From Bacteroidia bacterium (GTDB lineage: Bacteria > Bacteroidota > Bacteroidia > Flavobacteriales > Schleiferiaceae): a DNA stretch of 64,000 bases. This document shows, piece by piece, positions 7,718-10,480 of the stretch (position 1 is the stretch's first letter; each line of letters opens with the position of its first letter). The translations under genes were made by a program, and so were the position numbers. The DNA is taken from contig JAUHWL010000007.1 of NCBI GenBank assembly GCA_030424545.1, forward strand, positions 62,001-126,000, read 5' to 3'. The notes beneath the pieces are model-generated. The model worked only from the letters and a program-made list of their open reading frames with translations, made no database searches and was not told the DNA's origin.

Positions 7718-7899
7718 ACGTGTACAACTAGATTTAATTCGCTAAATAGGGCACGCAAATTAATCTTTCAAAACGCGTCTTTCAAAATTATTAACCAAAC
7801 TTAATAAACATAATTTTTGGTTAAAGTAGCTTCTGGCCTTAAATAATCTAAATTTTACGCCAGAAATAAACCACCTAAATTCATTCGAATTACAAGTAA

Positions 7900-7917
7900 T
7901 TTAGATTGATATCTAAA
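7900..7917. promoter_or_regulatory. Palindrome overlapping the H-NOX promoter
   Basis: TTTAGAT-TGAT-ATCTAAA is a perfect 7-bp inverted repeat whose spacer carries part of the TTG box at 7906-7908. Such placement would let a bound protein block or alter promoter use. Function is inferred. Confidence 0.35.
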
Positions 7918-7936
7918 CTTGAAAAAAGTAATTTTG
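7906..7936 (+). promoter_or_regulatory. Candidate promoter for the H-NOX-menA-menC operon
   Basis: TTG at 7906-7908 and TAATTTTG at 7929-7936 (exact TAnnTTTG) are separated by 20 bases, the usual Bacteroidota arrangement. The H-NOX ATG follows seven bases later, predicting a very short leader. Confidence 0.55.
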
Positions 7937-7943
7937 CCGGCTT

Positions 7944-8498
7944 ATGAAGGGAATTATATTTACCAACTTTATCGGCTACATGCAAAGCAAGTACAGCGAT
8001 GATGTGTTAAAAAACACATTAAAGGATGCCGGTAGATTAACCGATGAAGGTGGGTATACAGAGTCTGAATCTTACCCGTACGAGGAGATGTTTGAGTTGG
8101 CGGGAAACTTGGCAGCTTTAACAGGAGTTACGCTTGCACAAACCTTCGAAGATTTTGGGCAGTACCTTTTTATAAACTTAGCCAAGCGTTTTTCTCAGTT
8201 TTTTGCCCCAGACGAAACCTTGTTTTCTTTTCTTCAAAAGCTAGAAGATCACATTCATATAGAAGTAAGAAGAAAATATCCAGACGCCAATTTGCCCGGT
8301 TTTACCTTCGAAAGCCTAGACCAAAATAATTTGCGCATGATTTATACTTCTGAGCGTGCCATGAGCGATTTTGGCATGGGCATGATTAGAGGCGCAGCCA
8401 TTTGGTTTAAACGCGAAGTGTTTGTTGGCAAGAAAGATATAACGCCCAACCATGACGGTACACGGGTAGAAATTCATGTTCGTTTATTAGATGTCTAA
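7944..8498 (+). CDS. Stand-alone H-NOX (haem NO-binding domain) protein
   Basis: A 184-residue single-domain haem sensor. The HNOB pattern is visible: MKGIIFTNFI start, SYPYEEM around 43-49, the helix LEDHIHIEVRRKYPDANLP with His105 as the likely proximal haem ligand (spacing to Pro118 matches known members), and Y134-x-S136-x-R138, the YxSxR motif that holds the haem propionates. H-NOX proteins bind NO or O2 and normally act on a partner kinase, cyclase or chemoreceptor. None is adjacent. Instead the gene overlaps menA by eight bases and leads an operon with menC. A link between NO/O2 sensing and menaquinone synthesis is inference from that arrangement. Confidence 0.9.
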   Translation: MKGIIFTNFIGYMQSKYSDDVLKNTLKDAGRLTDEGGYTESESYPYEEMFELAGNLAALTGVTLAQTFEDFGQYLFINLAKRFSQFFAPDETLFSFLQKLEDHIHIEVRRKYPDANLPGFTFESLDQNNLRMIYTSERAMSDFGMGMIRGAAIWFKREVFVGKKDITPNHDGTRVEIHVRLLDV

Positions 8499-9420
8499 AA
8501 CTGTTTCGTTTAGAAAATGGCTTGCAGCTGCAAGATTAAGAACCTTGCCGCTAGCTTTAGCGGCTATAATTTTGGGTTCGTTAATGGCCATTTTTACGCA
8601 TAATTTTAACGGTTATATTTTATTCTGGAGCATCATTACAGCAATATGTTACCAAGTATTAAGCAATTTTGCCAACGATTTAGGAGACGGCATTAAAGGC
8701 ACAGATCAGCACAGAAAAGGAGAAAAAAGAGCTATTGCTTCGGGGGAGATAACCATAAAGCAAATGACCAACGCAGTAATTCTATTTTCTGTTTTATCTT
8801 TTATATCGGGTACATATTTAAGCTGGTTGGCCACAAATAATATGGACTTATGGGTAACTGCAGGTTTTGTTTTACTAGGCGTTTTGGCCATTTTTTCGGC
8901 ATTAAAATACACCTTGGGTAAAAACGCCTATGGCTACTCGGGCTGGGGCGATGTTTTTGTACTCTTGTTTTTTGGATGGGTTGGTGTTGTTGGAGCTAAC
9001 TTTTTGCACACCAATGTGTTTTGGCCAGAATTGTTCTTACCAGCAACTGCTGTAGGATTTTTAGCCATGGGCGTGCTTAACTTAAATAATATGCGCGATG
9101 TAAAAAATGATGAAGCCGCAGGTAAGCATACGCTTGTTGTAAAGTTGGGTTTAAAAAAAGCCAAGATTTATCAAGTTTGTTTAATTGTTGGAGCCATTAT
9201 TTTGCAACTAATATTTGTTTTACTAACAAACCCCGGTTGGGGCGGATACCTGTTTTTAATTATTCTACCAGCACTTTTGCTCAATGTAAAAAGTGCGTTA
9301 TTGGCCAAAACAGAAGAACAATTTGACCGATTACTAAAACCCTTGGCGATAAGCACGTTGCTGTTTTGCATCTTAGCGGGCCTTGGGCAAAATTTAAATC
9401 TCTTACTACAATCATTTTAA
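8491..9420 (+). CDS. menA: 1,4-dihydroxy-2-naphthoate polyprenyltransferase
   Basis: A 309-residue UbiA-superfamily membrane enzyme with about eight to nine transmembrane helices. It attaches the polyprenyl chain to DHNA, the committed membrane step of menaquinone synthesis. The first Asp-rich motif is NFANDLGDGIKGTD (about residues 49-62) and the second is NNMRDVKNDEAAGK (about 193-206). The N-terminal WLAAARLRTLPLALAAIILG matches MenA. It overlaps the H-NOX gene at its start and is followed by menC after ten bases. Confidence 0.95.
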   Translation: MSKTVSFRKWLAAARLRTLPLALAAIILGSLMAIFTHNFNGYILFWSIITAICYQVLSNFANDLGDGIKGTDQHRKGEKRAIASGEITIKQMTNAVILFSVLSFISGTYLSWLATNNMDLWVTAGFVLLGVLAIFSALKYTLGKNAYGYSGWGDVFVLLFFGWVGVVGANFLHTNVFWPELFLPATAVGFLAMGVLNLNNMRDVKNDEAAGKHTLVVKLGLKKAKIYQVCLIVGAIILQLIFVLLTNPGWGGYLFLIILPALLLNVKSALLAKTEEQFDRLLKPLAISTLLFCILAGLGQNLNLLLQSF

Positions 9421-9430
9421 TTTATACGTT

Positions 9431-10480
9431 TTGAAAGCAACTTGGAAAAAACACATCTTAACTTTTAAAAAACCTGGAGGAACTTCTAGAGGAGTACTAA
9501 AAGAAAAAGAAACCTATTTTTTAATTGTAGAAGATAATGGGGTAAAAGCCGTTGGCGAGTGTGCTGTATTGCGAGGTTTAAGTTTTGATGATCGTCCGAA
9601 TTACGAAGAAAAATTAGATTGGGTTTGTGCCAATATTTCGTTGGGTTTAGAAGAACTATACGTGCAACTAAAAGATTGGCCAAGCATACAATTTGGCGTA
9701 GAGCAAGTATTTAGAAGTTTAGAAGTAGAGGGTAGCCATATTTTGTTTAATACTCCATTTACACAAGGTAAAAGAGGTATTCCAATAAACGGTTTAATTT
9801 GGATGGGTAGCATTGAAGAAATGCAAAAACAAGTAGACCAAAAACTAAAAGAGGGCTATAGATGCTTAAAATTTAAAATTGGCAAACTAGATTGGGACCA
9901 AGAATTTGCACTTTTAAAAGCCCTTAGAAAAAGCCATGATACGCTTGATTTAGAAATTAGAGTAGATGCAAACGGTGCGTTCAATTTCTCTCAAGCAGAA
10001 AAAGTATTAAACGATTTGGCCAGCATAGAAGCACATTCTATAGAACAACCCATGCCTGTGAATAAATGGGATTATTTAGAAGCGCTTTGCGATGATTCTA
10101 TAGTGCCCATTGCGTTAGACGAAGAACTTATTGGTATTACCGATAGAGCTAAAAAGAAAGAAATGCTAGAGGCTATAGCGCCAGATTACATTGTATTAAA
10201 ACCCAGCTTTATTGGTGGTTGGCGTGGCACCGAAGAGTGGATAGAAATAGCCGAAAATTTTGGTGTAGATTGGTGGATAACATCGGCATTAGAGAGCAAT
10301 GTTGGTTTAAATGCTATTGCGCAATACACTGATGCCAAACATCTTAGAATGGCACAAGGATTGGGTACGGGTGGTTTGTATACAAACAATACAGCATCGC
10401 CATTATACATTAAAGATGCCGGTTTGTACTTTGATACCGCAACAGAATCTAAAGTAGCAGACGATCCTATTTTTAAGTAA
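9431..10480 (+). CDS. menC: o-Succinylbenzoate synthase (enolase superfamily)
   Basis: A 349-residue enolase-superfamily enzyme with a TTG start. The muconate-lactonizing subgroup signature is seen: the catalytic Lys pair in CLKFKIG (about residue 147), metal ligands D in RVDANGAF (about 178), E in SIEQPM (about 206) and D in LDEE (about 232), then LKPSFIGG with the second catalytic Lys (about 257). The position next to menA and the length support MenC, which dehydrates SHCHC to o-succinylbenzoate. Dipeptide epimerases share this fold, so context is part of the evidence. The remaining men genes are not in the window. Confidence 0.88.
   Translation: MKATWKKHILTFKKPGGTSRGVLKEKETYFLIVEDNGVKAVGECAVLRGLSFDDRPNYEEKLDWVCANISLGLEELYVQLKDWPSIQFGVEQVFRSLEVEGSHILFNTPFTQGKRGIPINGLIWMGSIEEMQKQVDQKLKEGYRCLKFKIGKLDWDQEFALLKALRKSHDTLDLEIRVDANGAFNFSQAEKVLNDLASIEAHSIEQPMPVNKWDYLEALCDDSIVPIALDEELIGITDRAKKKEMLEAIAPDYIVLKPSFIGGWRGTEEWIEIAENFGVDWWITSALESNVGLNAIAQYTDAKHLRMAQGLGTGGLYTNNTASPLYIKDAGLYFDTATESKVADDPIFK

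Follow-up and report, generated by a model that had tools for sequence, protein, structure and literature searches.

The known outputs of H-NOX proteins are signalling enzymes. Some are paired with histidine kinases, in modules (HnoX-HnoK/HahK) found in Vibrio, Shewanella, Pseudoalteromonas and most Bacteroidota. Others are paired with DGC/PDE enzymes, as in Legionella (Hnox1) and Paracoccus denitrificans, where contact between H-NOX and enzyme has been described and the output is c-di-GMP (PMC8738867). In Thermoanaerobacter and Caldanaerobacter an O2-binding H-NOX is fused to a chemotaxis receptor. The known partners are usually encoded adjacent to H-NOX and are contacted by both of its subdomains (PMC8738867).

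The locus considered here lies in a stretch of 64,000 nucleotides (the window) from the genome of a member of the Bacteroidota, where an H-NOX gene overlaps menA and is followed by menC. Its product has the sensor fold, proximal histidine, YxSxR motif and hinge glycines of the kinase-linked proteins (Z 20.0 and 30% identity to 6bdd, the H-NOX of Kordia algicida), whereas there is no co-directional kinase, and menA or other menaquinone (men) genes occupy the partner's position. As compared to the proteins partnered with DGC/PDE, contact with an enzyme is proposed rather than described, and the output would be a quinone biosynthetic pathway rather than c-di-GMP. The haem fold is also that of the Thermoanaerobacter/Caldanaerobacter type (1u4h, Z 19.3), but residue 143 is phenylalanine instead of tyrosine, and there is neither a fusion nor a membrane receptor. 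On the side of the pathway, the feedback of DHNA on MenD in S. aureus, M. tuberculosis and L. lactis provides a protein-level control point that a sensor could use (PMC9835592, PMC12421875), though that control is small-molecule allostery with no gas sensor protein, while a sensor protein is proposed here.

Published neighbourhood networks, built from the H-NOX of V. cholerae and P. denitrificans, place a "chorismate-binding enzyme" near some H-NOX groups, list Nudix and serine dehydratase as well, and make no mention of menaquinone (PMC8738867, its Figure 6). I found no paper in the open-access literature linking H-NOX to menA or to menaquinone synthesis. The chorismate-binding enzyme near H-NOX of Proteobacteria is, I presume, most likely PabB and not MenF. 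What appears to be new, judging from gene order, is a true H-NOX whose genomic partner is metabolic. Respiratory quinone (vitamin K2) feeds oxidases that are poisoned by NO, and control of its synthesis by H-NOX would show how bacteria tune quinone supply under NO. In the men-linked clade, the tie between a gas sensor and respiratory quinone synthesis would be compact and open to testing. It may also provide a small two-protein system for solving the contact between H-NOX and effector; as of a 2022 review, no high-resolution structure of H-NOX with a partner existed (PMC8738867).

The H-NOX, menA and menC genes of the window

The three genes lie on the forward strand. H-NOX (HNOB, PF07700; 7944–8498) is an intact open reading frame of 184 amino acids. 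It is followed by menA (8491–9420; 309 amino acids), encoding 1,4-dihydroxy-2-naphthoate polyprenyltransferase of the UbiA family, and, 10 bases further on, by menC (9431–10480; 349 amino acids, TTG start), encoding o-succinylbenzoate synthase. The last eight bases of H-NOX are also the first eight of menA (ATGTCTAA, 8491–8498). An earlier, sequence-only reading had claimed an intact H-NOX with His105 and YxSxR, the eight-base overlap and a menC gene after menA, and all of this was borne out. The match of H-NOX to PF07700 is full-length (117.4 bits against a cut-off of 25.5; residues 2–159 of 184), and no other H-NOX is encoded in the window genome. MenA scores 240 bits against TIGR00751 (cut-off 102) and is the sole menA match in the genome. 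The best NCBIfam model for MenC, TIGR01927 (o-succinylbenzoate synthase), gives 107 bits, below its cut-off of 130.55; the name is backed by the position of the gene after menA, which matches the order in most of the family genomes examined.

The residues expected of an H-NOX are kept: H105, the proximal haem ligand, P118, Y134-x-S136-x-R138, and G72 and G146 at the hinge glycine positions. H105 is invariant in every men-linked and kinase-linked sequence compared, and Y134, S136 and R138 are invariant in the men-linked members. An AF2 model built from five input sequences (pLDDT 80, pTM 0.78) found H-NOX or guanylate cyclase entries in all of its best 42 PDB rows, over 167–179 residues and with Z up to 20.4. 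That the protein is a true H-NOX sensor is nearly certain.

The binding of O2 by H-NOX is tied to a distal tyrosine (PMC8738867). The equivalent of Tyr140 of the Thermoanaerobacter protein, taken as the residue five after the arginine of YxSxR with no gap, is position 143, which is phenylalanine in all four men-linked proteins found in this study and F, L or V in kinase-linked ones. Sensing of O2 is ruled out by Phe143 in place of this tyrosine, and therefore NO alone is the predicted ligand. The men-linked proteins also contain no cysteine, hence no 3-Cys zinc site, so that the thiol/zinc mode of sensing (V. cholerae type) cannot operate and is likewise ruled out.

That NO matters to the window organism is indicated by its cNOR-type NO reductase: the genome encodes NorB (E 2e-113 to 3o0r), a NorC-like cytochrome and a NorQ-like ATPase. 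The norC-norB-norQ-like cluster lies outside the window (contig C15, locus L165, 564–3215). The remaining three genomes with men-linked H-NOX yielded no comparable NorB (third PF00115 protein).

Distribution and descent of men-linked H-NOX

H-NOX is present in 15 and menA in 83 of the 88 genomes of the family. The men-linked type of H-NOX occurs in four, belonging to three genera: the window genome (G000), G074 and G076 of another genus, and G024 of a third (JAOARK010000501, a Schleiferiaceae MAG). Three of these four are known from MAG contigs, with contamination of 5% in G024. All four carry this H-NOX against menaquinone genes. A survey of adjacency beyond this strain, as the sequence-only reading had proposed, thus extended the linkage to three further genomes, yet the total is 4 of 88 in the family, with none seen outside it.

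The usual order in the family is thioesterase-menF-menD-menB-menA-menC-menE, some genomes having two bPH-domain proteins between menD/menB and menA. G000 has H-NOX-menA-menC, and its thioesterase-menF-menD-menB-bPH-bPH genes are on another contig (L145). G074 and G076 have thioesterase-menF-menD-H-NOX-menA-menC, with menE about 2.5 kb beyond, and the eight-base overlap of H-NOX and menA recurs in them as ATGACTAA (loci L039 and L040); the overlap ATGNCTAA is common to the window and g18. In G024 the order is menD-menB-H-NOX, with menA-menC on a separate contig. The H-NOX of this last locus is 67% identical to the window protein, and the genome holds a second, kinase-linked H-NOX besides. A single site for H-NOX, between menD/menB and menA, would accommodate all four positions. 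The two bPH-domain proteins of L145 (7781–9791) follow menB, and open reading frame pairs of similar size lie between menD/menB and menA in L110, L111 and L114.

The comparison with other H-NOX rests on 74 loci gathered from searches of the family, order, class and phylum, those of the order, class and phylum being samples. Tblastn of their flanks found a histidine kinase at 64 loci, men genes at four and neither at six; none of the 70 other Bacteroidota loci examined has men genes beside H-NOX, and no histidine kinase match appeared at the four men-linked loci. Five of the six loci with neither were scanned, and each has another signalling gene: a PAS/HNOBA sensor protein adjoining H-NOX in L018, L019, L021 and L022 (and, in L018, a confirmed receiver protein) and a SpoIIE phosphatase in L098. 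The sixth, L020, belongs to the same clade and has genes of matching size. Among the loci sampled, then, men genes replace the signalling gene only in the men-linked clade. A scan of the genome collection with two short peptide patterns returned the three known relatives and one kinase-linked H-NOX; with such narrow patterns and sampled searches, rarer men-linked members elsewhere may be missed. Plasmid records gave H-NOX matches below 40% identity only.

Two of the other arrangements deserve description. L017–L022, L122 and L127 represent a very divergent clade of Flavobacteriales H-NOX (beginning MYGxx) beside a PAS-rich HNOBA protein, with a stand-alone receiver in L018. In L098 (1501–3085), from another Bacteroidia family, H-NOX overlaps or abuts the SpoIIE-type phosphatase (PF07228).

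In a tree of 73 H-NOX sequences, the four men-linked proteins are united in one clade (100/99), whose long stem arises among the kinase-linked H-NOX of Bacteroidota. In a MenA tree made by a quick method, the sequences from these four genomes occupy three separate positions, and its starred branches force three changes; the nearest MenA relatives of G074 and G076 (G064, G068, G072 and G073) have menD followed by menA without H-NOX. Movement of H-NOX-menA as a single cassette is unsupported, since MenA of these genomes is not monophyletic. With MenA scattered and H-NOX in one clade, the gains or losses of H-NOX at men loci did not follow the descent of MenA; this also explains the patchy spread of H-NOX. 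By these trees, the clade would have arrived beside men genes on different men backgrounds, or else have persisted there through many losses.

The case for function rests most strongly on gain or loss independent of MenA yet against a men gene in each case found, and the recurrence of the same H-NOX clade in the men clusters of three more genomes indicates a linkage beyond chance. One could suppose instead that the placement of H-NOX is accidental, or the inherited result of a single insertion, with no functional relation to the men genes, and its rarity (4 of 88 in the family and none found elsewhere) is what such an origin would produce. I consider this quite unlikely, because one H-NOX clade occupies different men positions while MenA is not monophyletic. 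Further, by a rough estimate, of the positions open to a gene in a 3,000-gene genome about 0.2–0.3% are in contact with a men gene and on its strand, so that even one independent repeat is improbable. Finally, the men genes are split differently in G000 and G024, the set being broken on opposite sides of H-NOX, and in both H-NOX stays with men genes.

Probable coupling to menaquinone synthesis and its possible targets

A monophyletic men-linked H-NOX clade with no co-directional kinase as neighbour supports a coupling of sensor to quinone, and I regard functional coupling of this H-NOX to menaquinone synthesis as likely. There may be an even chance that it represents an NO sensor that departed from histidine-kinase signalling and is now dedicated to the control of menaquinone synthesis. 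The sequence-only reading had supposed that NO or O2 sets quinone synthesis: the coupling is supported on the grounds just given, NO is the predicted ligand, and O2 falls with Phe143. It had supposed as well that H-NOX may act directly on MenA. MenA does adjoin H-NOX in two of the three lineages; in G024, however, the neighbour is menB. There H-NOX follows menD-menB and menA is elsewhere, from which it follows that what has been conserved is a tie to the pathway and not only to MenA.

Direct action of H-NOX on some Men enzyme seems to me about as probable as its opposite. In its boldest form, this reading has the H-NOX clade as an allosteric, gas-responsive regulator of a metabolic pathway, acting directly on a menaquinone enzyme when NO is bound; the output would then be neither a kinase, nor a cyclic-nucleotide enzyme, nor a chemotaxis receptor. 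I tentatively give this form a probability of about 0.42. H-NOX would be made together with the Men enzymes. Binding of NO to ferrous haem would, as it does in other H-NOX, break the bond to histidine, whereupon one subdomain would turn against the other at the glycine hinge. The altered surface would then bind or release a Men enzyme, which might be MenD, the committed enzyme and a control point under allosteric regulation in other bacteria (PMC9835592, PMC12421875), or MenA, the commonest neighbour. Quinone supply would in this way be matched to the stress that NO places on respiration. The binding of haem and NO, the direct contact, the enzyme touched and the sign of the effect of NO on synthesis are all points that I infer.

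The neighbours of H-NOX vary (menA-menC; menD and menA; menB) and are always men genes. Against direct control, the enzyme encoded next to H-NOX differs between loci, and most relatives in the family run the menaquinone pathway without H-NOX. No docking insertion, tail or unique residue set was found in MenA, MenC or MenD of the H-NOX-containing genomes.

The partner of the sensor might instead be a histidine kinase, or some other signalling protein, encoded elsewhere in the genome, the men operon merely tying the level of the sensor to respiratory capacity. Nearly all Bacteroidota H-NOX examined adjoin a signalling gene, and the window genome offers 16 kinase or receiver matches. The identity of its kinases to the catalytic region of a kinase paired with H-NOX reaches 33%. 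None of the matches listed spans the N-terminal region (about residues 1–160) that comes after H-NOX in the canonical pair taken as query; the similarity is in the catalytic and receiver domains, with no full-length match to suggest an orphan HnoK, though an unrelated kinase might fill the role. G024 has a TPR histidine kinase (L038, 8811–10670) convergent to H-NOX and a LuxR-type regulator (L109, 2354–2965) divergent from menA, but the kinase is unmatched in G074 and G076 and has only distant paralogues in G000, and no signalling gene was seen in common at the four men-linked loci. An unlinked partner thus seems rather unlikely. The TPR kinase was dropped as a hidden conserved partner for want of a match in G074 and G076, and the placement of kinase and LuxR-type regulator is possibly coincidence.

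It is also conceivable, if very unlikely, that the haem protein traps NO near the Men enzymes and so shields them or their naphthoquinol intermediates, with no allosteric signalling. Such a role would suit a haem protein that consists of a single domain, stands alone and lacks an output domain, and the gene overlap implies co-expression with the pathway. However, the glycine hinge and YxSxR are kept, and H-NOX has changed less than the enzymes under its supposed protection, a pattern more in keeping with an interaction surface than with a sponge. Between G074 and G076 it shows purifying selection (dN 0.013, dS 0.34, dN/dS 0.04), with dN below those of MenA, MenC, MenD and MenF. Moreover, such a sink would be stoichiometric, without turnover, and G000 already has an NO reductase.

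Upstream region and local signals

The 226 bases upstream of H-NOX (7718–7943, forward strand) are the expected site of a predicted promoter for H-NOX-menA-menC. Given this gap and a divergent sulfotransferase-like open reading frame on its far side, H-NOX is apparently the first gene of the transcription unit. The region contains a perfect 7+7 inverted repeat, TTTAGAT-TGAT-ATCTAAA (7900–7917), 26 bases 5' of H-NOX, with half sites resembling it at 7845–7854 and 7875–7881. The exact sequence occurs once in the window genome. As the operator of a regulon the repeat was rejected, its near-matches numbering 87 against 91 for a reversed control pattern, so that no regulon could be read. Scans of the region for sigma-70 promoters and terminators gave results close to background. 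A putative -7 motif of the Bacteroidota type, TAATTTTG, was identified by eye at 7929–7936. Within the first codons of menA there is a terminator-like hairpin (8547–8564) followed by TATAATTTTG; four such sites were found in the region, near the background of 2.5 expected.
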